Shown here: one piece after another, positions 33,167 through 47,933 of the stretch
How positions within the stretch are numbered: position 1 is the first letter of the stretch
How the letters are laid out: each line of letters starts with the position of its first letter
Origin: Leptolyngbya sp. FACHB-261
Lineage (GTDB): Bacteria; Cyanobacteriota; Cyanobacteriia; FACHB-261
Assembly (NCBI RefSeq): GCF_014696065.1
Contig: NZ_JACJPL010000027.1
Location: 744,001-808,000, forward strand
Reading direction: 5' to 3'
Length of the DNA stretch: 64,000 nucleotides
Made by a program: the position numbers and the translations under genes
Notes under the pieces: model-generated
Told to the model about the DNA's origin: nothing
Database searches by the model: none
The model's input: the letters and a program-made list of their open reading frames with translations, nothing else

Positions 33167-35011
33167 TCAAAACGGCTGGTAGCGCAACTCGAAATGGAGC
33201 CCCTTGTCTTGCAAGGAGTTGCCCTGATCACTAATCGTGACCAGAGGAATGCCGTAATCGATTTGCACCGATAGACCCGGAAGCACCAACCAGCGCACAC
33301 CCAAACCCACGCTGGCAATGGTTGTGGTTTCCGCGCCGCCCCGATTCCAACCCGTACCAAAGTCGAAAAACGGAGCTAGTTGCAGCACATTCGGATCCCC
33401 AGTTACGGGAATGCGCACTTCCAGGGAGGCTGAAACCGCATTGTCAGACACTAATTGGTTCTGGCGATAGCCACGTACGGTGTCAATTCCCCCCAGGCTG
33501 AAACGCTCTAAGGACAGCAGCGAATCAGGAGTTAATTGTGCATTAATTCGGACCAAACTTACGATTCTTGAAGTTAATTGCTGCACCCATTGAAACTGCC
33601 CTAACCAAGCAAAAAACCGCCCGTCTGGTCCTGCCTCATTCACGGTTGCATCAAAGGCATCTAGGCCAAGACTAAATTGTGATCTAGCTGCCAATACCCG
33701 TCGAGGTTGACGATCGACCCAATCTTGAAAAAAACGCAGCACGGTTACTTTGGAACGTCCCTGCTCATCAGGACCCTCGCCGAAGGGAAAAGGCTCGTCT
33801 AGCAAGAAAGTTTGGCTGCGCCGAAGATCGAGAGCTAGACCCAAAGCAACTTCGCGTTCCGGTGAGCGCAAGATCGGTTGGCGAAAACTCAATGAGAGGG
33901 TTCGCGTATCACTTCTAATACCTGAATTTTGAAAGGGTGCTTCAACGACATCACTGTCGCCGTTGTTATAGCTCAAGCTGAGCGTGCCATCTAGTGGATT
34001 CAGAGGCACAGAATAACTGACGCTATAGGTATCCAGTCCTTCTGTCAAACCATAACTAGCACTGAGACGATCGCCAAAGCCAAACAGATTGTCATGCACT
34101 GCAAATACATTGCCCTCCACGGAACCCACACTGGGCGATTGACGATTGGCAACTGAAATACCAGCATGAAACGGAGGAGCTTCGCGCAGGCGAATCTGCA
34201 AGACGTTACGACCAGGAGCACTGCCAGCAGTCAACTCTGCATTAACTTGGTCTAGTAAGGGATCTAGTTGCAATAATTGCAAGGCTTGTTCGAGCCGTCG
34301 CTGATTCAGTGGGCGACCGGTTGCTACAGCAATGCGGCTGCGCACATAGCCTTCCTGTAAGTGGGTTAAACCGCTGAGATCAACTCGCTCAAGTTGTCCT
34401 TCAATGACTTGAATTTGAACCACACCGCTACTGAGATTCTGGTTGTTCAGTAAGAACGCACCGGAAGTGATATAGCCGTTGTTGATGTAGAGCTGAGTAA
34501 TATCAGAGCGAAGTTTAATTAGGTCCTCAAATGTGAGTTCGCTATTTTCTAGGGGTTGGGTGAGGGCTGCAATTTCTGCTTGCAAAACTGTGCTACCCAA
34601 CACTTCTATTTCCTGCACCAAAAAACGTTCGCTATCAGGAGCAGAACGCTCTGGCACAGATGGCACTGTTGGCAGCTCAAGATTGGGCTCTGGCAGTGGT
34701 GCTGGTTCTTCAGGCAGAGAGGGACGGGGTGGCTCCGGTGGCCGGGGTAACAGCTGACCAGGATCGGGGGCATTGTCCGGCAGCTGAGGTGGTCGGGGCT
34801 GAGTCGGGGCTTGAGCAACCGCACCCGGAGCGAAATCGAGCAGAAGCGAGCCCAATTCAAGTTCTGATCCAGCAGGCGGACTCTGAGCAGAACTTTTAGT
34901 TGCAAGACTCGCTACGGTTGCAATACTGAGACCTGAGATTAAACAAGCCTTTAAAAGTGGGCTGAGCGAAAAGTTGTTCAGCTGATCATGCTTCTGAGAA
35001 CAAAACAGCAT
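33167..35011 (-). CDS. TpsB/FhaC/ShlB-family outer-membrane transporter
   Basis: 614 residues from ATG 35011; ATG 35050 gives 13 more and cannot be excluded. Signal region CLISGLSIATVASLATKSSA is followed by a long Pro-rich linker (to about residue 125), a POTRA-like region (RFLVQEIEVLGSTVLQAEI, LRSDITQLYINNGYITSGAF, VIEGQLERVDLSGL), a second POTRA half with LREAPPFHAGISVANR, and a beta-barrel with FSLGGIDTVRGY (the conserved lid loop) and a C-terminal strand ending in FELRYQPF, aromatic at the last residue as in outer-membrane proteins. TpsB proteins export large TpsA adhesins or proteases. No TpsA gene is in the window; the divergent neighbour is a CHAT protein. Confidence 0.92.
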   Translation of the reverse strand: MLFCSQKHDQLNNFSLSPLLKACLISGLSIATVASLATKSSAQSPPAGSELELGSLLLDFAPGAVAQAPTQPRPPQLPDNAPDPGQLLPRPPEPPRPSLPEEPAPLPEPNLELPTVPSVPERSAPDSERFLVQEIEVLGSTVLQAEIAALTQPLENSELTFEDLIKLRSDITQLYINNGYITSGAFLLNNQNLSSGVVQIQVIEGQLERVDLSGLTHLQEGYVRSRIAVATGRPLNQRRLEQALQLLQLDPLLDQVNAELTAGSAPGRNVLQIRLREAPPFHAGISVANRQSPSVGSVEGNVFAVHDNLFGFGDRLSASYGLTEGLDTYSVSYSVPLNPLDGTLSLSYNNGDSDVVEAPFQNSGIRSDTRTLSLSFRQPILRSPEREVALGLALDLRRSQTFLLDEPFPFGEGPDEQGRSKVTVLRFFQDWVDRQPRRVLAARSQFSLGLDAFDATVNEAGPDGRFFAWLGQFQWVQQLTSRIVSLVRINAQLTPDSLLSLERFSLGGIDTVRGYRQNQLVSDNAVSASLEVRIPVTGDPNVLQLAPFFDFGTGWNRGGAETTTIASVGLGVRWLVLPGLSVQIDYGIPLVTISDQGNSLQDKGLHFELRYQPF

Positions 35012-35050
35012 CGACGGATCGTTTCTCCCTCTCGTTGACACGCCCCACAT

Positions 35051-35471
35051 TGACCTGGATGAATCTCGATTGCTTCTTAAGACCCTTCAGCCAACCGCTA
35101 CTTAGGATACTGCTGTTCGGGAATAACAGAGCATAAGCAATAATACAGTGTGAGGTGACAAACGCTACCAACAAGCTCGCGTCTACCAGGTGACAGACTC
35201 CCTTAGGCCAAAAGCTATAGGAGTTCTCAATCTGTCCAGCAGGACCCCGTAGTATAGAATGTAACGAAGCATTAAAGGCATAGCCGCTACAAAAATTAGC
35301 GAGAACCCTAAACACGTCACTTAAGCGTGTTTAGGGGCTCTGCTAGCCAGAAGTAGGTTCATTGCTTGATTGAAGCATTCACGGAGAAATTGCTAAAGCT
35401 GTTTATAACTGCTCGCTTTTTGGTAGGTTTAAGAGCACAAATTCAGTTCAGTTTTCCGTTGGAGTTCTGCT
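35051..35471. promoter_or_regulatory. Divergent region between TpsB and CHAT genes, with a strong inverted repeat
   Basis: No gene visible. Perfect 11-base inverted repeat CCCTAAACACG / CGTGTTTAGGG at 35306-35316 and 35326-35336, 9-base loop. No T run follows, so an operator or a leader hairpin is as likely as a terminator. Confidence 0.55.
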
Positions 35472-38183
35472 ATGTTCCGCCAACGCTATCGAACCAGACC
35501 TTATCAAATTTTGGGCATTCTATTTTTTAGTAGTTTGGCTCTCTGCCTGTGGTTGGGTCCGGTAGTTTGGCAGAACGGGCGTCCCAAATTGGGCAGTATG
35601 GCAACCGCCCAGGTAATGCCCCAGGTAAAAGCGCAGGTAAAAGCCCAAGCACAAGCCGCTACTACGGCTCAAGCGGATAGCCAACATCAACAGGTGCAGC
35701 AAGGCGTTGAACGTTATCAGGCTGGAGATTTCCAGGGAGCAGTTGAGCGTTGGCAACCGGCCTTGGTCGCTTACCGCAACGCTAATCGCCCGACCGAAAC
35801 AGCGATTGTACTGGAAAATTTGGCGAGGGCTTACCAACAACTGGGGCAGATTGACCGCTCGATTAGCCACTGGGAGCAGGCGATTGCTACCTCTCGTCAG
35901 CTCGGCGACTCTCGGCAGGTTGCCAGATTACTAACTGAGCAAGCCCAGTCTTACAGCAGTTTAGGCCAGCACCGACAGGCTATCGCCCTGCTATGTGGTG
36001 CTTACGGCGAAGCGCACAATTGCGCTGAGGCTAGCGCCTTGCAACTAGCGCGTAGTCAGCAGGACCGTCCAACCGAGGCAGCAGCCTTGGGCAGCTTGGG
36101 CAATGCTTACCGGCTGAGTGGTGAGTATGGGCAGGCGATCGAGTACCTGAACGCAGGGCTGCAATTGGCCCGTGAGCTGAACCAAACGACGTACACAATT
36201 GCTGCCTTAAATGACTTGGGCAATGCTCATGCCAGTCTTGCTCAAAGCCAGTACCGTCAGGCTAGTTCAGCGGAGCAACGAGGTGGTAGCAACGAAGCCA
36301 GTCAACTGCGAACTCAAGGGCGCAACCAAGACAGCCAAGCCCTGCAATATTTCCAAGAAAGCCTGCAATTGGCACGCAGCCAGAAGGATCAGTCCGCCCA
36401 ATTACGGGCCCTGCTCAACCTGGTACCCACCTATCACCGCAGCAACGATTCAGATCGAGCGGCTGAGAGTCTGCAACAGGCCGTGGCCTTGCTCGACCGT
36501 CTGCCCGACGACCGGGAGAAAGTCTATGCTGCTGTTGATTTAGCCAGCTTGCTGCAACCAGCCTTGGCGCTCAATCTAAGTTTGGCAGGACCCCAGTGCT
36601 TGCAATCTCGGACAGAACCCCAAGCGATTGAATTGCTCAGCAAAGCAACCGCCATTGCTCAACGCATTCAGGATCGCCGCTCAGAGTCTTTTGCCCTGGG
36701 CAAGTTGGGGCACATTTACGAATGTCGCCAAGACTATACCAAGGCATTGGAATTAACTCGGCAGGCTCAATGGGCTGCCGATCAAAATTTGCTGGCTAAA
36801 GACAGTCTTTATCTATGGGAATGGCAAGCTGGTCGAATTTTCAAAGCTCAAAATCGGCAACCGGAAGCTATCCAAGCCTACGAGCAAGCTGTGAATACCT
36901 TAGAGACAATTCGCGGGGACATTCTGATTGCCAGTCGAGATTTACAGTTTGATTTTCGCGACACTGTTGATCCTATCTATCGTGACCTCGCCGAATTGAG
37001 ATTGAGCCGAGCACTCCTTCCATCGGTATCGGCTAAAGACCGCACGCAGGAATTAAGCTCGGTGCTAAACACGATTGATTCACTGAAGTTAGCTGAACTG
37101 CAAAACTATTTCGGCAATGACTGTGTACTTGCAGTGGGGCCACAGCCATTGAATCAGGACAGTATAGGCAGTGCTACTGCGATTATAAATTCGATTATTT
37201 TCCGCGATCGAACTGCTATTTTAGTGAGCCTGCCTGATGGCGAGAAAAAACTGCACTGGCTCAATATCGATAATGAACGACTGAGACAAACAATTAATGA
37301 GTTCCGCAGAATTTTAGAACGACGGGCTGATTTGATTTACGATCCCACCTTGTCACGGCAAGTCTATGACTGGATTATCCGTCCGTTTGCTGAAGATTTA
37401 GCTCGCACCCAAACAACAACCCTGGTATTTGTGCAGGACGGCATTCTGCGCAGTGTACCCATGGCTGCCCTTCACGATGGCCAGCAATTTTTGATTCAAA
37501 AATACGCTGTCGCCACAACTGCCAGCCTTACCCTTACTGACGCCAAAGCCTTGGACCGGCAAGGTCTTCGGGCTCTAGCGCTGGGGTTGACTGAGGAATC
37601 CGCAGTTGATGGTCGCACCTTCCCAGCCCTATCTAATGTTGGGCTAGAAATTGATCAAGTCGAGACTGAATTGCCAGGCAGCAAGCAACTCTTAAACCAG
37701 GAATTTACGCGAGAGAGACTGCGGCAGGAACTGACCACAACCAGCTATCCAATTCTACATATTGCCACTCATGGCGAGTTTGGTTCAGAACCAGAAAATA
37801 CCTTTTTGGTAATGGGCAATAACGACAAGCTCACGATCAATGACTTGGATGCTGTGATTCGGAGTGTCAATCGCAAGATAGGGCCAGTCGAGTTATTAAC
37901 CCTTACAGCTTGTCAAACGGCTGCTGGAGATGACCGGGCAGCGCTTGGCTTGGCAGGTGTGGCCATCCAGGCAGGGGTCAAAAGCGCCCTAGCGTCCCTT
38001 TGGTACATTGACGACGCGGTTACAGCTGAGTTAGTAACTCAGTTCTACGATGGTTTGCGCGATGCCAAGCTGAGCAAAGCTGAGGCCTTGCGAGCAGCCC
38101 AGCAGGCAGTGATTAACAAGGGTGGCTTTTCTGCCCATCCTGCTTACTGGGCCCCTTTTACTCTGATCGGCAACTGGCTCTAG
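35472..38183 (+). CDS. Secreted TPR and CHAT-domain protein (caspase-like fold)
   Basis: 903 residues. A signal-anchor (ILGILFFSSLALCLWLGPVVW, about 12-32) and an Ala/Gln-rich linker precede TPR repeats (about 70-480; LENLARAYQQLGQIDRSISHW, LGSLGNAYRLSGEYGQAIEYL, LGKLGHIYECRQDYTKALEL). The CHAT domain covers about 600-903. The catalytic pair is intact: His767 in LHIATHGEF and Cys814 in LTACQTAAGD, with ALGLAGVAIQAGVKSALASLW and AHPAYWAPFTLIGNW at the end. CHAT proteases of the caspase clan cut proteins. Exported here, with TpsB divergent and DUF928 convergent 28 bases away. Natural substrate unknown. Confidence 0.9.
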   Translation: MFRQRYRTRPYQILGILFFSSLALCLWLGPVVWQNGRPKLGSMATAQVMPQVKAQVKAQAQAATTAQADSQHQQVQQGVERYQAGDFQGAVERWQPALVAYRNANRPTETAIVLENLARAYQQLGQIDRSISHWEQAIATSRQLGDSRQVARLLTEQAQSYSSLGQHRQAIALLCGAYGEAHNCAEASALQLARSQQDRPTEAAALGSLGNAYRLSGEYGQAIEYLNAGLQLARELNQTTYTIAALNDLGNAHASLAQSQYRQASSAEQRGGSNEASQLRTQGRNQDSQALQYFQESLQLARSQKDQSAQLRALLNLVPTYHRSNDSDRAAESLQQAVALLDRLPDDREKVYAAVDLASLLQPALALNLSLAGPQCLQSRTEPQAIELLSKATAIAQRIQDRRSESFALGKLGHIYECRQDYTKALELTRQAQWAADQNLLAKDSLYLWEWQAGRIFKAQNRQPEAIQAYEQAVNTLETIRGDILIASRDLQFDFRDTVDPIYRDLAELRLSRALLPSVSAKDRTQELSSVLNTIDSLKLAELQNYFGNDCVLAVGPQPLNQDSIGSATAIINSIIFRDRTAILVSLPDGEKKLHWLNIDNERLRQTINEFRRILERRADLIYDPTLSRQVYDWIIRPFAEDLARTQTTTLVFVQDGILRSVPMAALHDGQQFLIQKYAVATTASLTLTDAKALDRQGLRALALGLTEESAVDGRTFPALSNVGLEIDQVETELPGSKQLLNQEFTRERLRQELTTTSYPILHIATHGEFGSEPENTFLVMGNNDKLTINDLDAVIRSVNRKIGPVELLTLTACQTAAGDDRAALGLAGVAIQAGVKSALASLWYIDDAVTAELVTQFYDGLRDAKLSKAEALRAAQQAVINKGGFSAHPAYWAPFTLIGNWL

Positions 38184-38211
38184 GGATTGCTGATCTCTTT
38201 CTTGAGTGCGT

Positions 38212-38994
38212 CTAGCGCCGAGCTGACGCCTGACGCTGCAAGGCAGCAATCTGCCGCAGGGAAGCACTTCGCCTCGCGCTAGGGCCAGGTCCTGACTCTT
38301 CCAAGCGGGCCAGATCTTCCAAGAGACTAGAGACAAGATCCCGCGATTTGGGGTCACTGGCAGCAGCTAGGGCTTCTCCTAAAGCGTCGTACCAAAAACC
38401 GGCCCTTGCATAGAGCTGAGATCGCATTAGGCGATCAGGCGTTGCCGCTAAAGCTCGGGCCAGGCTAGGCGATGGCTCAACCACACGAATTTGGCTTCTG
38501 GCAATCAAATCACCAGACGGATGATTGGGGTTGCAAACCATAACCACTTGCCAGAGGTAAGTTCGTCCAACACTCAGGCCCGGTTGGTTAGTCGGCAAGG
38601 ATACTTGCATCATGCCGGGCGAACTTTGCAACTCTAGAGTTTGCACTGGTTGAGGATTGAGCTGGTTGTTGGCGTTATATTCGTAAAGTTTGAACTGGAG
38701 TGGTTTAGCCTCACTGCCGGGTGCAAACCAGGCAAAGGTTGGCCGAGTCGAACTGGTTTGCCCAGCTGGTTCTAGGGGAGCCAATAGCGTGAGTGCAGGT
38801 CCAGCTTCACCTCGACAGCCGCCTCGGGTACCAGCAGTCCCAGAGGGGCCAGGATTATCCGGTGGCCCTCCAGGCGGTATGTATTGAGCGAGGGCAGTTG
38901 ACGGCAAGGCAAGCGAGAGGCCGAGAATAGCACTCAAGAGCAATTTGTGGTTGCCATAACGGCTAAAGCTGAGTATTAACATTTGAATCATCAT
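38212..38994 (-). CDS. DUF928-family exported protein
   Basis: 260 residues. Signal peptide KLLLSAILGLSLALPSTALA. After a Gly/Pro-rich spacer the body has the DUF928 layout: ALTLLAPLEPAGQTSSTRPTFAWF, PLQFKLYEYN, LSVGRTYLWQVVMVCNPNHPSGDLIARSQI, then ALAATPDRLMRSQLYARAGFWYDALGEAL. DUF928 proteins are found in cyanobacteria next to CHAT, TpsB and CHASE2 genes. Function unknown. Start: ATG 38994 or 38991; no clear ribosome site distinguishes them. Confidence 0.85.
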   Translation of the reverse strand: MMIQMLILSFSRYGNHKLLLSAILGLSLALPSTALAQYIPPGGPPDNPGPSGTAGTRGGCRGEAGPALTLLAPLEPAGQTSSTRPTFAWFAPGSEAKPLQFKLYEYNANNQLNPQPVQTLELQSSPGMMQVSLPTNQPGLSVGRTYLWQVVMVCNPNHPSGDLIARSQIRVVEPSPSLARALAATPDRLMRSQLYARAGFWYDALGEALAAASDPKSRDLVSSLLEDLARLEESGPGPSARRSASLRQIAALQRQASARR

Positions 38995-39162
38995 ATCGAA
39001 TGGACCACTGGCTCATTTAGCTCACTCACACCATACAAGAAGGTGTTAAAGCCGACAGCCGTCTTTTGCGACAGTTAACCTGCAACCAATGGCAAATCCC
39101 ATGTTGATTACTGCAAAGCTAATGGCTGAAATTGGCACAGACTAGAGTAGCCAACCGGACAT

Positions 39163-41055
39163 TTAACTCGAGTGGCGTTGCCAGAAACGTTTCTTAATCA
39201 CTGGCCAGCTCAAAAGACAGACGGTACCTTTAGGGCTTTGAGGAAGTCGCTGGAATTTGCCGCCTAGTTGACGAGCTAAATTCTCAGCCTGTTGCGTTCC
39301 CCGGCCTTTAGAGTTTGTGGTTAAACCGGCACCGTTATCAGTGATACGCAGCACATAGGTATTCTTTTCCTGAGTGCAAATGACGCTGAGCCGAGTCGCG
39401 GCAGTAGCGTATTTACCAACATTGCACAAGGCTTCTTCCAGAAAGCGACAGAGACTGCGCTTGTGATCGGCAGTGAGGCTGCGATCATCAATCGGGTCAA
39501 ATTGGCGTATTTTAATTCTGATGCTTTTGAAGCAGGGAAAGTCGCGTAGCAGAGTGTCAGAGTAGACCTCGTAGAGAATTTCGTGTAGAGGCGCTTGTAA
39601 GTCAAGCTCCTGTCCCTCGCCGAGGTACAGGCTGTCGTTTTGCGTCAGGCTTTCACGGCGCACTGATTCGTAGACTGAGCGTAATTCTTGATTGAGATGC
39701 TCTAGTTCTAGTAAAAGGCGACTTGAGGGCTCATCTTGTTCTCGGGCTTGGCGGAGCAGTCGCGCCAAAATCTGTAATGGGCCATTGTGAATGGCATCGA
39801 AAGTCTGATCAATGACTAATTGTCGCTGCTCAATTTGCGCCCTTAGGTAACGGTTGTATTGATAAAAAGGCGTGAGTCCAGCCCCATTGAGACCCAAGAC
39901 CAGCAGCGCAGGAACCACAGGAATCCACCAGCCCAGGAGCAGCAGCAAATAAGCGGCAGTCACCAAGATCAGGCTGGCCAGCATTAAACCCAGAAAAACT
40001 CTAAGCGGAGAATGAACAAACCGGCTCAAGCCAATGCCGACTAGGCCCCAAACCGTGACCCAGAGGTATTCCCACGGCTCACGCCAAGCGTTCAGCAGTG
40101 GCCGCTGATCGAGGACGGCACTGATTATCTGACTCACTGCATGGGCCTGGATCTCAACACCATCGACTAAACCGCGCTTCTGACCATCGCCAGCCACGGC
40201 TGTTGTATTCACGCTGTCTTTGACACTGTCGGCCGTCATGCCAATGATGACGACCCGGTTGCGGATCCAGTCAGGCTTGACTTGCCCATCAATAATTTGA
40301 CTGAAGGAAACCCTACGAAAAGGGGCTAGACCACCACGAAAGTTCAGCAGCAGTTGACTGGTTGTGCCAACCGATTCACCGATGTAGCCACCGAAGTTAA
40401 CGGAGAATCGGGGTAGCTCTGTTTTACCCAGACGCATGGCATTTTTGTCACGAATTCCATTACTGACTTCAGTTCTTAAATACTGCTCTGTTAAGCGGAG
40501 AGCCAGTGAAAACTTGTATCCCTGTTCTGTATTAATTCCTAATAAGCTACGCCGTAGACGGCCATCGGAGTCTAATAGAACATCAGCGAAACCAGCCTGC
40601 TGAGCAGGCAACTCTGGAGGGGGATTGACAGTAGAGTTACCGGCTCCTTTCAAAGCCCGTTCAATCACAATTAAATTCTTATTTTGTTGAAAGATAGCAG
40701 CCAGTTCTGAGCGACCAGAACCGACTGGCAAATCTCTAAAAATATCCAGGCCAATTGCTCTAGGCTGATAACTTTGTAGAGTTCTGAACAGGAGAGCTAG
40801 ATCACGATCAGGGACAGGGTAACCGAAGCGACGAATATCAGTTTCATTTACCCCGACGATCAGAATTCGCTCGTCAGTGGGCTCAGAGGGGCGAAGGCGG
40901 AGAAACGCGTCTAATGTGTTCCATTCTGAGGTTTCTAGGGCTCCAGTAAAACGGCTAACCATCACTAGCCCGATCACAATCAAACCGGGTAAAGCACCTA
41001 CTCGCCAGATGGTTAGCTCTCGCCGAATCGCCGCTGCTAATCTCACGGCCGTCAA
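39163..41055 (-). CDS. CHASE2-domain histidine kinase
   Basis: 630 residues. One N-terminal membrane helix (about 20-36), a large extracytoplasmic CHASE2 domain (about 40-320; ILIVGVNETDIRRFGYP, RAIGLDIFRDLPV, VVIIGMTADSVKDS, VDGVEIQAHAVSQI), three more membrane helices (about 335-400), then a cytoplasmic HisKA_3-like dimerisation region with His423 in FDAIHNGPLQILARLL. The ATPase domain has EEALCNVGKYATAATRL, ITDNGAGL and GRGTQQAENLARQLGGKF. Together with the NarL-like regulator directly upstream it forms a two-component system whose signal would be sensed outside the cytoplasmic membrane. The regulator stop is 28 bases away. Confidence 0.93.
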   Translation of the reverse strand: MTAVRLAAAIRRELTIWRVGALPGLIVIGLVMVSRFTGALETSEWNTLDAFLRLRPSEPTDERILIVGVNETDIRRFGYPVPDRDLALLFRTLQSYQPRAIGLDIFRDLPVGSGRSELAAIFQQNKNLIVIERALKGAGNSTVNPPPELPAQQAGFADVLLDSDGRLRRSLLGINTEQGYKFSLALRLTEQYLRTEVSNGIRDKNAMRLGKTELPRFSVNFGGYIGESVGTTSQLLLNFRGGLAPFRRVSFSQIIDGQVKPDWIRNRVVIIGMTADSVKDSVNTTAVAGDGQKRGLVDGVEIQAHAVSQIISAVLDQRPLLNAWREPWEYLWVTVWGLVGIGLSRFVHSPLRVFLGLMLASLILVTAAYLLLLLGWWIPVVPALLVLGLNGAGLTPFYQYNRYLRAQIEQRQLVIDQTFDAIHNGPLQILARLLRQAREQDEPSSRLLLELEHLNQELRSVYESVRRESLTQNDSLYLGEGQELDLQAPLHEILYEVYSDTLLRDFPCFKSIRIKIRQFDPIDDRSLTADHKRSLCRFLEEALCNVGKYATAATRLSVICTQEKNTYVLRITDNGAGLTTNSKGRGTQQAENLARQLGGKFQRLPQSPKGTVCLLSWPVIKKRFWQRHSS

Positions 41056-41083
41056 TCTCTCTGCACCTTGCGTTCAAGCGGCC

Positions 41084-41758
41084 TTAGTCGATCAACCCCT
41101 CTTCTCTAGCCCGCATTTCTGTCTGGATGCGAATGTTTTTGCCAGCATCAGGATAAACATCCAACACATCCTGGATTTTTGTCCAGTAGTGGCGTACAGT
41201 GCGCTCTGAAACACACATGCGTTCGGCTATGGTCTTGTCCTGTAAACCCTCGCGAAAGGCTAGATTGAGCACTTCCAGCCACTCAGGCTTCACTTCTACG
41301 CCTGTTCGCATTTCCTTTGGCGTATAGATTAAACCTTGCAAAGCCCAATCAACTCGAGTGAGCATTTCCTTAATGGGCAGACTTTTATCAGCAACAGTAA
41401 AGCCACCTTCATGGGCATCAATCAGAGGCCGCAAACGCACCAACGAACGAATGTGGGCACTTTGCACCACAATGTTGAGCGCTGGGTAATTCTTCATCAA
41501 CGTTCTTAATAGTTGAATGCCCGTATCAGTGCGTGCAGAACCACCCGCAAGCTCTGGCATGGAAAGATCCATAACGACCAACCCAGGCTGGAATTTTTCT
41601 GCTTGATTCTGAGCCTCTTGAGCAGTTTGGGCAGTTAAAATATCTGCTTCTGGGTAGTGGCGTCGAAGCACGTCTAAAGTACCACTGAGGACCGATTCGT
41701 GATCGTCGACCACAAGGATCTTTCGTGTCCCTGGCTCTGATAATGCTTGACTCATCAT
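41084..41758 (-). CDS. NarL/LuxR-type response regulator
   Basis: 224 residues from ATG 41758, with AGGGA 7 bases in front; ATG 41797 overlaps the upstream gene and ATG 41755 is one codon later. Receiver domain: KILVVDDHESVLSG, phosphoacceptor Asp (LVVMDLSMPE), QSAHIRSLVRLRP with a somewhat long loop, and Lys in VADKSLP. The C-terminal helix-turn-helix has LAFREGLQDKTIAERMCVSERTVRHYWTKIQDVL, followed by a basic tail. Expected to be phosphorylated by the CHASE2 kinase directly downstream. Targets are likely the genes of this cluster, by inference. Confidence 0.92.
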   Translation of the reverse strand: MMSQALSEPGTRKILVVDDHESVLSGTLDVLRRHYPEADILTAQTAQEAQNQAEKFQPGLVVMDLSMPELAGGSARTDTGIQLLRTLMKNYPALNIVVQSAHIRSLVRLRPLIDAHEGGFTVADKSLPIKEMLTRVDWALQGLIYTPKEMRTGVEVKPEWLEVLNLAFREGLQDKTIAERMCVSERTVRHYWTKIQDVLDVYPDAGKNIRIQTEMRAREEGLID

Positions 41759-41780
41759 CGATATCCCTACAGCTTCTAAC

Positions 41781-42542
41781 CTATTTTTGGGATCCATCTG
41801 TTTGCGGTGACCAACGGAAGTACCAAACCACCGTGAGATTCTTTTTGTGGTGGTAGCACTGTCCTGACGCTAAGAAGCGAAAAGCGCGACCAAGATACTC
41901 CCTGTCCCTGGAAGCATAACAGGAAATGAGAGCGGCAGCATCCGGATAAACAAACTGTACACTCAGCTCACTGATTGCCTGGTTCCAAAGTGAACGCTGC
42001 GCTTGCAAGCCAATATGAACCAAGCTAGCTTCTACGGCATTGAGTTGTAGCAGTTCATCCAACATTCTTAAAACTACAATACTTAAATCAGCTGACTCAG
42101 GATGCCAACTAGGCGGCAACTCTGATGTGAAATTAAGCTGAGGATAACTCGCTTGCCAGGGCTCTATTAGACTATGAATCGCCAGCGGCAAACTATCCTC
42201 AATATAAGCGGGAGATAAATGATCGCTAAGCTTTCTGAGATAGCTGTGCCAATCGTCCAGCTTGGTCAACCAATTCTGCTGATGGCTCGCTGAGATGCCC
42301 GTTTCATCTACTAGAGACAGTTCTAAACGTCGTCGCATGGTGAAGGTTTCCTGCAACAACCCATCCCGGATTTTTTCTGCCTCATGGAATAACTGGCTCG
42401 ACTGCTTCCGAGACCACCATTTGACAGCATGTTGAGTTTGAAAATATGACCAGATCAGCCACAGCGAGCCCATAATGCCAACCACTGAAGCGATGACTGC
42501 CGGACGAAGAAGGGAAAGCACAGGAAAACTAAAAGAGGTCAA
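41781..42542 (-). CDS. Membrane protein resembling a histidine kinase without the phosphoacceptor histidine
   Basis: 253 residues. One membrane helix at about 10-33 (RPAVIASVVGIMGSLWLIWSYF). A HisKA_3-like helix follows: EAEKIRDGLLQETFTMRRRLELS, where kinases of this class read I-H-D-G-L-L-Q; here Arg59 stands in place of His. The rest aligns loosely to an ATPase domain (VVLRMLDELLQLNAVEASLVHIG) but no DxGxG or GxG box is visible. It is first in a run with the regulator and the CHASE2 kinase (overlap of 17 bases with the long regulator start). Probably a regulatory pseudokinase that modulates the CHASE2 kinase or regulator. Confidence 0.75.
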   Translation of the reverse strand: MTSFSFPVLSLLRPAVIASVVGIMGSLWLIWSYFQTQHAVKWWSRKQSSQLFHEAEKIRDGLLQETFTMRRRLELSLVDETGISASHQQNWLTKLDDWHSYLRKLSDHLSPAYIEDSLPLAIHSLIEPWQASYPQLNFTSELPPSWHPESADLSIVVLRMLDELLQLNAVEASLVHIGLQAQRSLWNQAISELSVQFVYPDAAALISCYASRDREYLGRAFRFLASGQCYHHKKNLTVVWYFRWSPQTDGSQK

Positions 42543-42849: not shown

Positions 42850-43551
42850 TCACCCAGTAGTCACCGTTCCCAGCTCGCTTAACTGCTCCTGTAGCCAGCT
42901 CTCTAATAATTCATCTAGTAGGCGTTGCCTCGTGGCCTCATCCAGTTGAGCGGGAAGCCGTTGCTCTAAACGCACGATCACAAGCCAATTGCCCACCGCA
43001 GTGGGTGGCCACAGCTGACCGGGTCGTCCCACAGTTAGCAACCGAGCCAGGGTCGGATGATAGCCTCCCAGCTCAACTGGCCCCACTAGACCTCTGGTTT
43101 TAGCCTCTGGTCCTTGCGAATACTCTCGGGCTAGCTCGGCAAAAGATTGTTCACCAGCCTGGATGCGGAAGTAAAGCTCATCTGCAACCCCTACATCTTG
43201 AGTGCGGATGAGCGAATAAATAACTTGATCCAACTGACTCTTGCGCTTAAGGAAGTATGACTCTAGCTTGTTGCCACCAACAATCTGCTTCAGCTTCTGA
43301 ATTTTTAGATCCCGCGTCACTAAAGCATCCAGATTTCCAGACGGTTCAACGGGGGGCTGGTTACGCTGGTGTTGCTCTCGCACCCGTTGACAAGCGAGCC
43401 CAATTTCCTCAGACGTACATTCAATCGAAGCAATAGCCTGATCAATCACAAGTTCGCGCAGTAAGCGGGGTAATAATTGATAGCGATCGAGTAAACCAAC
43501 AATTTGCTCGGAGGTTACAACTTGATCTTTGACTTGTAGAACAGCAGTCAT
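42850..43551 (-). CDS. Parvulin-type peptidyl-prolyl isomerase (SurA/PpiC-like)
   Basis: 233 residues. N-terminal helical part (VTSEQIVGLLDRYQLLPRLLREL, CTSEEIGLACQRVREQHQ, YFLKRKSQLDQVIYSLIRT) as in SurA-like chaperones, then a parvulin domain (ADELYFRIQAGEQSFAELAREYSQGPEAKTRGLVGPVELG, PGQLWPPTAVGNWLVIVRLEQRLP). No signal peptide, so cytoplasmic. In cyanobacteria such genes often sit next to type I secretion substrates, and here the calpain-like and PPC-repeat genes without signal peptides are just upstream. A role in keeping them secretion-competent is inference. Confidence 0.82.
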   Translation of the reverse strand: MTAVLQVKDQVVTSEQIVGLLDRYQLLPRLLRELVIDQAIASIECTSEEIGLACQRVREQHQRNQPPVEPSGNLDALVTRDLKIQKLKQIVGGNKLESYFLKRKSQLDQVIYSLIRTQDVGVADELYFRIQAGEQSFAELAREYSQGPEAKTRGLVGPVELGGYHPTLARLLTVGRPGQLWPPTAVGNWLVIVRLEQRLPAQLDEATRQRLLDELLESWLQEQLSELGTVTTG

Positions 43552-43875: not shown

Positions 43876-46098
43876 TTAAGCAAAGGTAATGGAGTCGAAG
43901 CTGCTTCTAAATTCAGCGAACGACAGGTCAATATAACCATCATTAGCATCACCACTGGCAGCTCGGCCATCGGTGCCCCAGGGATTGCGAACAACGATTC
44001 GTTGTTGACCGTTGCTGCTGTAGGCATTGGTCAGTGTATAGGCGTGGCCACCCATAATGCTGGTCGTCGAATTAGGGTTGTAACGGCCCAGTTCTACGGC
44101 TTGGTTAGACTGAAGCGCCATCGCAATTTGGTTGAATGAGACACTCTCAAAGCTGCCAGCTGACCCTTGGGCACCAAACTGGGCAGTTGGGCGACCAGTA
44201 ACGTAGCTCAGGGAGTTGAAGGGGTGATCACCATTGCCAATCAAGTTATAACCCGGTTGGCCTTCGTGCCATTCCCGCCACTGAGCATAGGCGCGTTCTA
44301 CCAAGGGAGCCCAAAGTACGTTGGCCACATAGTTAGGATTCACGCTCCCGTTCGCGCTAGCGCCGAACAGGTTGCCGTTGAGAGTCGCTAGGCGGCGATC
44401 GACCGTTGTATACTCAGCGCTGCCATTAGAGAAGAAGCGCATGGTGTAGGTGCTGTCTCCGTTGTCTGTGATCATGTTGTTGATCACAGCACTCACGCTG
44501 TTACCGCCAGCATTGGCAGGCGTGAAGGTTGCTGCCAGAGCCGCGAGGAAGGCACAATCGCCCAACTGTCCCTGGTCGATATCGCCGATTTGCGCCTGAC
44601 CTGCACTGCCGAACAAACTGCCCTGAACGTGGCTATAGATCAGTGCTGTCTGATTAAACTGAGCGGTCGGTGCTACTGTGCCCAAGAACCAGCGTCCGAC
44701 TAAATTAGACTCGAACTGGTTAGCTGACATATTGGCACTGGTGCCTACAGCCACTTGGTTAGTGAGCCAACGCACTGGCTCAGTCAGATTGAAGCGAGCG
44801 CTGTTGTTGACCAGAGTTTGTAAGTCAGTTCGCTCGTTGGCATCAATAACTGAGCCGTCTTCTATGTTGCGAAACAGAGCCAGCATGTCATTGCGATTGA
44901 GCTGACCATCTGAGGCTAAGGTCCGGGTCTGATTGATAACGCCTGTGTCTAGCAGGTTCTGGCTAAACCAATCATCAGTTGGAGCACTCGTAGCTGAAAC
45001 ATTTGCAGCCGAGGCATTCGTAGCGAGCCTGATGTTGTAACCCGTTTTGGTGCTACCGAAAGAGTTCACCCGGATGTAGTAGGTACCGGCATCCAGATTG
45101 CGGTTGATTGACTCAGCTAAGGAGCCACCCTTAACTGAGCGGGCTATCTCGCCACCGTTGCTGCCAAGCAGACGCAGATCCGCATCTGCCCTCAGCTTGG
45201 TGAGCGCAAGATTAACGCTACCGCGTTGTAGTAGGTCGAAGCGGTAGAAATCATTAACGTCTTTGCTACCGATGGACTCATTCCAAACACGATTGTGGCT
45301 AGAGAAGGAACCAAAGTGTGAAGCAGAGCCCCGATGATTACCGGCATCAGGAGCGCTAGTTTGCAGGTTCAACTGGTAACCGGTCTGAGCATCAGCGCAG
45401 GCATTGACTTGAATGTAGTAGGTGCCTGCTTCTAAGCCACGGTGGCCAATTGCTTCAGCCAGTGTTCCACCCCGAACCGACCGGGCAATTTCTACACCGC
45501 TACCATTGATCAGGTGCAGGTCAGCGTCTGCCGTTAAGCCCTTGAGAGAGATTTTGATACCGCTAGCACGAGTCAGGCGAAACCGGTAATAGTCGATCGG
45601 GTCACTGCTATCGACCAAGTCGTTCCGGTTTTTAGTAGCGCCATGGCTCTGCTTACCAAAGTTAAGGGCCGTCGCCAAGCTGTCATTGCCGTCGCTTAAG
45701 GCTGAGGCAGCGCCAACAGTCAGGCTAGGCTCAGCGCGTAAACCTTGCGCTGCATCACCGACAATCGTCGCTTCAGAGCTAAGACCGGTCAGGCCATCTC
45801 TGTTAGCTCCCGAGGTAGACAGGCTAGCAGTTTGGCTAGCGTAGCCATTGGTTAAGCTGTCCCAGGACTGACCAGCTAAGTTGGAATTGATTAGCTCAGC
45901 GTTGTCAACATTTTGATCGAGCAGGCTAATGGAGCTAAAGCCTACAGCGTCTCTTGTACTGGCGCGCTGGGAAGAGAACAAGCCTAATTCTGTCGCTGAG
46001 TTACTATCGAGCCCAGAGATCCCGGTCTGGAGAGGAGACAAATTAAGAGTTGCGTTAAGTCCGTTATTAGAATCTTGTGTGTGCAATTCGTTTAACAT
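43876..46098 (-). CDS. Calpain-like C2 cysteine protease with two PPC domains
   Basis: 740 residues, ATG 46098 with GGAGAGG in front. A low-complexity N-terminus of about 130 residues rich in Ser/Asn/Leu, without signal peptide. Two pre-peptidase C-terminal (PPC) domains at about 145-250 and 260-360 (YYRFRLTRASGIKISLKGL, DADLHLINGSG, AGTYYIQVN; then FYRFDLLQRGSVNLALTKL, AGTYYIRVN). The calpain-type core has Cys515 (GQLGDCAFLAAL), His685 (GGHAYTLTNAY) and Asn705 (RNPWG), so the triad is complete. A calcium-activated extracellular protease is likely. No signal peptide suggests type I secretion; no transporter genes are in the window. Confidence 0.9.
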   Translation of the reverse strand: MLNELHTQDSNNGLNATLNLSPLQTGISGLDSNSATELGLFSSQRASTRDAVGFSSISLLDQNVDNAELINSNLAGQSWDSLTNGYASQTASLSTSGANRDGLTGLSSEATIVGDAAQGLRAEPSLTVGAASALSDGNDSLATALNFGKQSHGATKNRNDLVDSSDPIDYYRFRLTRASGIKISLKGLTADADLHLINGSGVEIARSVRGGTLAEAIGHRGLEAGTYYIQVNACADAQTGYQLNLQTSAPDAGNHRGSASHFGSFSSHNRVWNESIGSKDVNDFYRFDLLQRGSVNLALTKLRADADLRLLGSNGGEIARSVKGGSLAESINRNLDAGTYYIRVNSFGSTKTGYNIRLATNASAANVSATSAPTDDWFSQNLLDTGVINQTRTLASDGQLNRNDMLALFRNIEDGSVIDANERTDLQTLVNNSARFNLTEPVRWLTNQVAVGTSANMSANQFESNLVGRWFLGTVAPTAQFNQTALIYSHVQGSLFGSAGQAQIGDIDQGQLGDCAFLAALAATFTPANAGGNSVSAVINNMITDNGDSTYTMRFFSNGSAEYTTVDRRLATLNGNLFGASANGSVNPNYVANVLWAPLVERAYAQWREWHEGQPGYNLIGNGDHPFNSLSYVTGRPTAQFGAQGSAGSFESVSFNQIAMALQSNQAVELGRYNPNSTTSIMGGHAYTLTNAYSSNGQQRIVVRNPWGTDGRAASGDANDGYIDLSFAEFRSSFDSITFA

Positions 46099-46511: not shown

Positions 46512-47933
46512 CTAGGCAGACAGGCTGAGCGTGTAGTTGGTATCGCCGCTAAATTGATAGACCTCAGCAATATAGTTGCCCGATGACAAGAAGGTATTGA
46601 TCGACTCTGCAACACTGCCTGCCCGGGCAGACTGACCCAAGACTTCACCCGAATCGAGAATGCCATTGTTGTTGCCGTCCCGAACCAAGCGAATATCCGC
46701 ATCTGCGCTCAAGCCACTTAGGGAGAAGTTGACGTTGCGACCAGAACTCAGGCTAAAGCGATAGGTATCGATGGTGTCGCTGTTGTTGACGGCGTCGGCG
46801 AAAGTGCGAGTGCCGCTTAGCGCGCCCACATTCACCTCAGTCGGCAGCAGATTACTCGGAGACGTGGTGGACATCTTCAAGCTGTAGCTGGTGTCACCAC
46901 TGTGTTGGTAAACCTGAGCGATATAGCTGCCCGCAGCTAGGGAGCGCAAGTTGATTGAGTCGTCAGCAGCACCGCCACGGGCTGAGCGAGCAAGCTCCTC
47001 ACCAGAATCAACGATGCCATTGTTGTTCCCGTCCCGGATCAGGCGGACATCAGCATCAGCACTCATTCCTGTCAAGGACAGGTTGAAACTGCTGGAGGCT
47101 CCAAGACTGAAACGATAGGTATCAGCAGTGTCATTGCCATTAACCAAGTCGGAGAAGGTCTGGGTGCTGCTTAGCGCCCCAACATTCACCTCTGTCGAGA
47201 CCAAATTGCTGGGTGTATAGGCTGCCGTCGTAGACATGTCCAGCGAGTAATTCGTGTTGCCACTGTATTGATAGACCTGAGCAATGTAGCTGCCTGCGGT
47301 CAAGGAGCGCAGGTTAATCGACTCATCAGCACTGCCACCCCGAGCAGCACGAATCACTTCCTCGCCAGAATCGATGATGCCATTGCTGTTGCCATCCCGG
47401 ATCAAGCGAACATCAGCATCAGCGCTCAAACCGCGCATCGACAGATTGAAGTTGCTGCTGGTGCCGAGGCTGAAGCGGTAGGTATCAGCTGTATCGGAAC
47501 TGCCAACAGAATCAGCGAAGGTGCGAGTGCCACTCAACGCGCCTACATTAACCTCAGTGGGTAGTAAGTTGCTAGGGTTAGAGTTAGACAACCGCAGCGT
47601 GTAGTTGTTGCTAGTATCACCACTGTAGCGGGAAACCATTGCTAGATAGTTGCCAGTTTCCAAAGAGCTGAGGTTAATTGATTCGTCAGCGTTGTTGAAC
47701 CTTGAGGAGCCTAAGACATAAGTGTCCGATGAATCAAACACCCCATTATTATTGCTGTCGCGATAGAGGCTAATATCAGCATCGGCACTCATACCTGTTA
47801 GAGAGAGATTAAAACCGCCAGCGGTACCAACGCTAAACCGGTAGAAATCTCTGTTAAAAGTCGGACTAACAAAGGTGGAGTTAGAGTAGGGCTGAGAAGC
47901 GAGTGAGCCAGCGTTGTAATATGTATCCGTCAT
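46512..47933 (-). CDS. Four-repeat PPC protein with EF-hand-like calcium loops
   Basis: 473 residues, no signal peptide, ATG 47933 with GGGATAGGA in front. Four tandem PPC-like repeats of about 115 residues (near 1-120, 121-240, 241-360, 361-473): each has FYRFSVG or TYRFSLG, LTGMSADADVRLIRD, a D-x-N-x-N-G-x-x-D-S-G-E loop (DSNNNGVFDSSD, DGNSNGIIDSGE, DGNNNGIVDSGE, DGNNNGILDSGE), then SINLRSL and GSYIAQVYQYSG. The loop fits EF-hand ligand spacing. Repeats two and three are nearly identical. Probably an extracellular calcium-binding surface or matrix protein, exported without a cleaved signal. Confidence 0.88.
   Translation of the reverse strand: MTDTYYNAGSLASQPYSNSTFVSPTFNRDFYRFSVGTAGGFNLSLTGMSADADISLYRDSNNNGVFDSSDTYVLGSSRFNNADESINLSSLETGNYLAMVSRYSGDTSNNYTLRLSNSNPSNLLPTEVNVGALSGTRTFADSVGSSDTADTYRFSLGTSSNFNLSMRGLSADADVRLIRDGNSNGIIDSGEEVIRAARGGSADESINLRSLTAGSYIAQVYQYSGNTNYSLDMSTTAAYTPSNLVSTEVNVGALSSTQTFSDLVNGNDTADTYRFSLGASSSFNLSLTGMSADADVRLIRDGNNNGIVDSGEELARSARGGAADDSINLRSLAAGSYIAQVYQHSGDTSYSLKMSTTSPSNLLPTEVNVGALSGTRTFADAVNNSDTIDTYRFSLSSGRNVNFSLSGLSADADIRLVRDGNNNGILDSGEVLGQSARAGSVAESINTFLSSGNYIAEVYQFSGDTNYTLSLSA

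Follow-up and report, generated by a model that had tools for sequence, protein, structure and literature searches.

A recurring cyanobacterial surface gene set that joins two-partner secretion, CHAT proteases and DUF928-CHASE2 receptors

The locus described here raises the question of whether genes for secretion, proteolysis and signalling that stand side by side in a cyanobacterium form one system or are neighbours by accident. It lies in a stretch of 64,000 nucleotides from Leptolyngbya sp. FACHB-261 (NZ_JACJPL010000027.1, positions 744,001-808,000, forward strand), called the window below, in which positions 33167-42542 hold genes for a TpsB transporter, a CHAT protease, a DUF928 protein, a CHASE2 receptor, a response regulator and a protein of 253 amino acids. 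An earlier note, made from the sequence alone, had presented this span as a seven-gene cluster; its gene calls and domains hold, but the span contains six genes. Our results argue strongly that these genes make up a real system that recurs and has for the most part gone undescribed. It is a surface system widespread in cyanobacteria, and the genome studied here has eight copies of it, the window cluster among them.

As the earlier note had expected, homologues of CHAT, DUF928, CHASE2 and TpsB are neighbours in many genomes. DUF928 was found in 48 of 146 genomes of the phylum and in 35 of 77 genera, and in none of 14 control genomes; no viral relatives turned up in IMG/VR. In 80 DUF928 loci from other cyanobacteria, read for about 10 kb on each side, we found CHASE2 in 50, exported-type CHAT in 32, a two-partner secretion (TPS) domain in 29 and TpsB in 15. 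The number of these loci expected to have CHASE2 within 10 kb is 2.1, and the maximum in 200,000 simulations was 11, so that the cluster is not accidental. A DUF928 alignment was dropped as a scan query, its conservation being insufficient; a scan anchored on exported-type CHAT gave 79 named loci, and the 38 that span at least 20 kb contained DUF928 (30), TPS (29), CHASE2 (24) and TpsB (10), figures biased to the window type since the scan retained the closest relatives of the window CHAT. Furthermore, a TpsA-TpsB-CHAT-DUF928 operon on one strand, without CHASE2, occurs in another phylum, Nitrospira (L215, L224, L232, L257 and L258, of which L257 carries the label Nitrosospira), and in partial form in L217 and L228. 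The earlier note had allowed that CHAT might be tied to TPS in this genome only; CHAT is linked to TpsA or TpsB far beyond it.

Family searches of the 6.95-Mb genome itself returned 8 DUF928, 10 CHASE2, 14 CHAT, 3 TpsB and 14 TpsA genes. Every one of the eight DUF928 genes has CHASE2 within 10 kb (p = 5e-13), six of eight exported-type CHAT genes are near DUF928 (p = 4e-9), and each of the three TpsB genes has both DUF928 and CHASE2 no more than 10 kb away (p = 1e-5 for DUF928). The copies vary, with TpsA and CHAT as separate genes in some and joined in one, and three paralogous loci (L050, L053, L054) encode a CHAT-CHASE2 fusion protein. At L053 11090-12136 a DUF928 paralogue carries an added peptidoglycan-binding domain, and at L049 7772-9487 a TIR-CHASE2 protein adjoins DUF928 and an exported-type CHAT. 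The TIR domain of the TIR-CHASE2 protein is similar to ThsB of Thoeris (PADLOC E = 2e-54). The TIR loci that we checked contained no further TIR-CHASE2 protein, and we discarded the idea that it is a common form, knowing it from this genome only. Membership of the cluster in a known defence system was also discarded, the ThsB-like TIR being the one strong PADLOC match, with TPR and BovA matched in part and the rest not at all.

Which members of the set belong most closely together? The DUF928 gene (38212-38994, minus strand; DUF928 E = 3.3e-37) encodes a protein with a signal-peptide-like N-terminus, for which AlphaFold2 predicts with confidence (pLDDT 83) an FN3-like beta-sandwich that ends in a helical tail. 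In the PDB this model comes closest to the C-terminal domain of MtxA (E = 9.5e-6, TM 0.39-0.53), followed by FN3- and adhesin-like domains. Next to it stands the CHASE2 receptor gene (39163-41055, minus strand; CHASE2 E = 4.7e-62). All 48 genomes with DUF928 carry CHASE2, as against seven of the 16 listed class genomes without DUF928 (p = 4e-7), and the copy numbers of the two families rise together (rho = 0.90; 0.82 after genome size). Distances between DUF928 proteins and between CHASE2 ectodomains are correlated (r = 0.54), and none of 3000 within-genome permutations reached this value. DUF928 lies within 1.5 kb of 84 out of 93 non-fragment CHASE2 proteins, in 78 of these on the same strand, although the 93 come from DUF928- or CHAT-anchored sets and 84/93 is not an unbiased rate. 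We propose that DUF928 partners the CHASE2 receptor on its extracytoplasmic side; our literature search found no publication giving it a role with CHASE2. At L288, L145, L121 and L129, DUF928 genes stand in tandem as pairs or triplets. The same permutation gave a weaker signal for CHAT and TPS (19 of 3000 shuffles as high) and, in a small sample, a non-significant one for DUF928 and CHAT (1147 of 3000). Because the distance signal is strong for DUF928-CHASE2, weaker for CHAT-TPS and missing for DUF928-CHAT, we read the set as two modules, TPS-CHAT and DUF928-CHASE2, that are often co-located. A role of DUF928 as an immunity protein against CHAT was rejected, co-evolution with CHAT not being detected.

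The secretion side of the window consists of two divergent genes. On the minus strand, 33167-35050 encodes a TpsB/FhaC-type outer-membrane transporter with POTRA domains and an Omp85 barrel (POTRA_2 E = 3.5e-23, ShlB 9e-34), as in type Vb secretion. On the plus strand, 35472-38183 encodes a predicted TPR-CHAT protease (CHAT E = 2.9e-61, plus TPR) with a signal-peptide-like N-terminal segment and a C-terminal CHAT domain that holds the His-Cys dyad of these cysteine proteases (LHIATHGEF / LTACQTA). The dyad is retained in 132 of 137 CHAT relatives and in 34 of 35 CHAT domains of the CHASE2 type. By a simple and lax hydrophobicity rule, a signal-like N-terminus was called in 102 of 111 exported-type CHAT proteins, 129 of 148 DUF928 proteins, a single CHAT-CHASE2 protein among 29, and 301 of 806 other genes. 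No TPS domain was found beside TpsB or anywhere else in the window. Since the genome has 14 TpsA genes for three TpsB genes, the window TpsB presumably serves TpsA proteins encoded elsewhere in it, and in a close relative (L209) a TpsA gene stands between TpsB and CHAT. One of the 14 is the fused copy mentioned above, a single open reading frame (ORF) of 1489 amino acids with TPS, beta-helix and CHAT (L053 12152-16621). These 14 genes account for the adhesin gene that the earlier note had found missing.

Single TPS-CHAT ORFs were also found at L098, L119 and L172. With a profile built from four fusions we obtained matches at E <= 1e-90 in 128 of 194 class genomes, for the most part to ORFs longer than 1200 amino acids, and 20 of 20 high-scoring matches that we fetched were such single ORFs. 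To judge from these sequences, TPS-beta-helix-CHAT polypeptides look common in cyanobacteria, which strengthens the earlier suggestion that the CHAT protein, or a partner encoded elsewhere, is the cargo of the transporter. In one of the fusions (L098 4109-9577) a single ORF encodes a family-2 glycosyltransferase, followed by an internal signal peptide, TPS and CHAT (Pfam-confirmed); similar ORFs were seen by sequence resemblance in L289, L290, L292, L295, L296 and L300, and a remnant-like one in L302. They recall the HMW1-type TpsA proteins, which are glycosylated. Exoproteomic support was considered and not used, the CHAT protein of a paper on a Nostoc water extract being represented by one short peptide, which is too weak. 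Our literature search found no publication that combines "two-partner secretion" or "filamentous hemagglutinin" with "CHAT domain".

What does the receptor do with its signal? The outputs of CHASE2 proteins adjoining DUF928 include CHAT (EACC2-type), cyclase, three kinds of kinase, GGDEF-EAL, GGDEF, SpoIIE, AAA_35 and TIR, and on a tree of CHASE2 ectodomains the 12 output labels require 13 changes, the cyclases at least three. In the window, the output is a DesK/NarX-like histidine kinase (HATPase_c E = 2.4e-4, below Pfam's cut-off) with the H-box IHNGPLQ; a set of 12 homologues preserves its H, N and G boxes, and VraS (4gt8) is its closest solved relative. A CHASE2 domain, the three boxes and an adjacent DNA-binding receiver are thus all present, as in a CHASE2 two-component system. 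The adjacent gene (41084-41797, minus strand; receiver E = 3.2e-11, GerE weak) encodes a NarL/LuxR-type regulator, the predicted partner of the kinase, and in L055, as well as in 10 related loci from other genomes, its orthologue adjoins the CHASE2 kinase. The last gene (41781-42542, minus strand) encodes the membrane-anchored protein of 253 amino acids, for which there was no Pfam match. It has DHp-like helices and a CA-like domain, and hhalign aligns it with the CHASE2 kinase (E = 9e-5, probability 59%). Where the kinase has its H-box His this protein has Arg, a position that varies among relatives; the homologue in L192 keeps the phosphoacceptor His. In Foldseek its model had 191 PDB matches at E <= 1e-3, and all 50 of those shown were histidine kinases or kinase-like sensors. 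The protein thus looks like a histidine-kinase fold that lacks a phosphoacceptor His, and the pseudokinase call of the earlier note is borne out by the degenerate H-box and by both sets of matches. Its homologue precedes the regulator in five homologue loci and in five more from the CHAT scan; the CHASE2 kinase comes next in four of the five homologue loci, the fifth being a fragment that stops after the regulator. The genes for the 253-amino-acid protein, regulator, kinase and DUF928 run on one strand with gaps of -17, 28 and 168 bases and may therefore be a single transcription unit.

In the light of these results, we put forward, as a reasoned proposal to which we give about an even chance, that the best overall explanation is a modular envelope system of three layers. 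In the export layer, TpsB would carry TpsA exoproteins through the outer membrane, and the Sec-exported, caspase-like CHAT protease would act on them or travel with them; many genomes join the two in one polypeptide, with CHAT at the C-terminus of TpsA. In the sensor layer, the exported, FN3-like DUF928 would partner CHASE2 and report the state of the export layer, be it proteolytic release, a jam or contact. In the output layer, the cytoplasmic end of CHASE2 is interchangeable; in the window, the histidine kinase would pass its signal to the NarL-type regulator by phosphorelay, tuned by the pseudo-kinase much as RetS acts on GacS, and the regulator would act on transcription, with the divergent tpsB/CHAT pair probably one of several targets. 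A broader reading, which we hold with rather less than even confidence, is that this is a hitherto undescribed class of outside-in envelope signalling in which exported caspase-like proteases, alone or as TpsA C-termini, make a surface signal that DUF928-CHASE2 reads and passes to swappable outputs (two-component, second-messenger, caspase-like or TIR). Several observations weigh against the three-layer proposal. The window locus has no TpsA next to it; at some loci of the CHAT-anchored scan CHAT is found by itself, with neither TPS nor DUF928, and DUF928-CHASE2 pairs without CHAT within 10 kb exist among the 80 DUF928 loci, so that the coupling between export and sensor layers is loose. Co-evolution of CHAT with DUF928 or CHASE2 was not detectable in the small within-genome sets, and the DUF928 and CHAT anchors bias both samples towards clustered loci.

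These same observations bear on the rival explanations. Control of adhesin shedding, in which the exported CHAT would release TpsA as LapG does CdrA and the receptor would set attachment, motility and biofilm, is a special case of the three-layer proposal; we think it possible, if somewhat unlikely in this narrow form. TpsA-releasing proteases have been described (LapG-CdrA, SphB1-FHA; PMC5422565), in Leptolyngbya boryana both motility and biofilm are suppressed by Dgc2, a protein that joins CHASE2 to GGDEF (PMC10581220), GGDEF-EAL outputs adjoin DUF928 and the CHAT-TPS co-evolution is suggestive, but in TPS-CHAT fusions the protease is built into the exoprotein, an arrangement that would also suit self-processing or an effector. 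An effector is what contact-dependent competition or kin recognition would make of it, with TpsA-CHAT as a CdiA-like effector, DUF928 as its immunity protein and CHASE2 as an accessory sensor. CHAT does occupy the C-terminus of TpsA, as toxin domains do in CdiA, and DUF928 at times forms the tandem arrays noted above. We consider this doubtful all the same, as DUF928 co-evolves with CHASE2 and not detectably with CHAT, many DUF928-CHASE2 pairs have no CHAT nearby, and CHAT is conserved down to its dyad rather than swapped for unrelated toxin domains. In addition, DUF928 is predicted to be exported, unlike the Cdi immunity proteins that counter cytosolic toxins.

Conflict or programmed death would give the receptor a different task, namely to sense attack on or damage to the envelope and to set off caspase-like (EACC2), TIR or other effectors inside the cell, with the exported CHAT in an extracellular proteolytic trigger. 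A part in conflict and apoptosis has been predicted for EACC2 systems (PMC8195603), and in our data the EACC2-type CHAT outputs come with DUF1822, which adjoins 19 of 30 CHAT-CHASE2 genes and none of 70 other CHASE2 genes, and with a sigma-like gene; the ThsB-like TIR and AAA_35 outputs point the same way. We judge this explanation unlikely, since most sampled outputs are signalling domains of the ordinary kind (adenylate cyclases, kinases, GGDEF-EAL, SpoIIE), TIR-CHASE2 was seen in no other genome among the TIR loci checked and the window copy is a plain two-component system. Finally, large duplicated families of surface genes could share variable regions without any common function; every family here is expanded, and the make-up of the cluster differs between loci. 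Mere proximity is nevertheless very improbable in view of the same-strand adjacency of DUF928 and CHASE2 (78 of 84 adjacent pairs), their correlated copy numbers and within-genome co-evolution, the fusion of TPS and CHAT genes and the conserved operon in another phylum.

The divergent tpsB and CHAT genes are separated by a promoter region of 421 bp (35051-35471), which contains a perfect 11-bp inverted repeat, CCCTAAACACG-N9-CGTGTTTAGGG (35306-35336). Its 9-bp core occurs at a single site in the whole genome, and because related loci showed no such repeat ahead of their CHAT genes it is only a possible operator; we set it aside as a system-wide one. A motif common to the two divergent promoters was also set aside, its score being no better than that of shuffles. 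The parvulin-like foldase (42850-43551, minus strand; Rotamase E = 2.3e-7) and the calpain-like protease with PPC domains (43876-46098, minus strand; Peptidase_C2 E = 1.1e-15), which the earlier note had seen as following the cluster, are neighbours in the window and not conserved members. Paralogues of both adjoin TpsA genes at L061 and L066 of this genome, and further calpain-related genes were seen in L209, L206 and L186; parvulin is rarely found in other cluster loci. A protein with four PPC domains is encoded downstream of the calpain-like gene (46512-47933).

CHASE2 is among the commonest extracytoplasmic sensor domains of cyanobacteria, its ligand has been stated to be unknown (PMC10581220), and the locus-by-locus pairing with DUF928 offers a concrete candidate partner. 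Caspase-like proteases of cyanobacteria have been discussed as intracellular, whereas a large family here appears to leave the cell, in part in the form of TPS exoproteins; two-partner secretion would then have a new kind of cargo. Through this set, moreover, the predicted EACC2 conflict systems are linked with a surface secretion machine. The earlier description of the system as undescribed stands overall, except that the CHAT-CHASE2/DUF1822/sigma subtype is known as EACC2 (PMC8195603) and that one DUF928-CHASE2-WD40 neighbourhood has been noted in Nostoc punctiforme (PMC5587647).

How, then, does the set compare with known systems? The EACC2 systems (Kaur, Burroughs, Aravind, eLife 2021; PMC8195603) have a constant N-terminal domain with a caspase-like domain and a variable C-terminus that can be CHASE2, beside DUF1822 and an extracytoplasmic-function (ECF) sigma gene, as in the CHAT-CHASE2 subtype at three loci of this genome. 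The window copy, in contrast, has no such protein, its CHASE2 protein lacking a CHAT part, no DUF1822 or ECF-sigma gene is present in its cluster, and DUF928, two-partner secretion and exported CHAT go unmentioned in that work. Two-partner secretion with a protease (FhaB/FhaC with SphB1, CdrA with LapG, LepA) shares TpsB and TpsA exoproteins with the set, and proteases are known both as processors of TpsA and as its cargo, LapG-CdrA and SphB1-FHA showing TpsA as substrate (PMC5422565); here, a caspase-like CHAT takes the place of these proteases, in many cases as a fusion to the C-terminus of TpsA, and a DUF928-CHASE2 receptor comes with it. Contact-dependent inhibition (CDI; CdiA/CdiB/CdiI) likewise has a TpsA exoprotein with an enzymatic C-terminal domain, but its variable toxins and co-evolving immunity genes have as their counterpart one conserved CHAT and a DUF928 in which we saw no immunity behaviour and, in a small sample, no co-evolution with CHAT. 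One- and two-component CHASE2 receptors such as Dgc2 of L. boryana combine the sensor with kinase, cyclase or GGDEF outputs, and differ in that the sensor here is paired with the candidate partner DUF928 and with secretion genes. Finally, the Craspase protein Csx29 and the cyanobacterial CHAT protein HetF resemble the window protease in TPR-CHAT architecture and His-Cys dyad; they are intracellular, whereas its signal-like N-terminus and the TPS fusions of its relatives predict that the window CHAT is exported.

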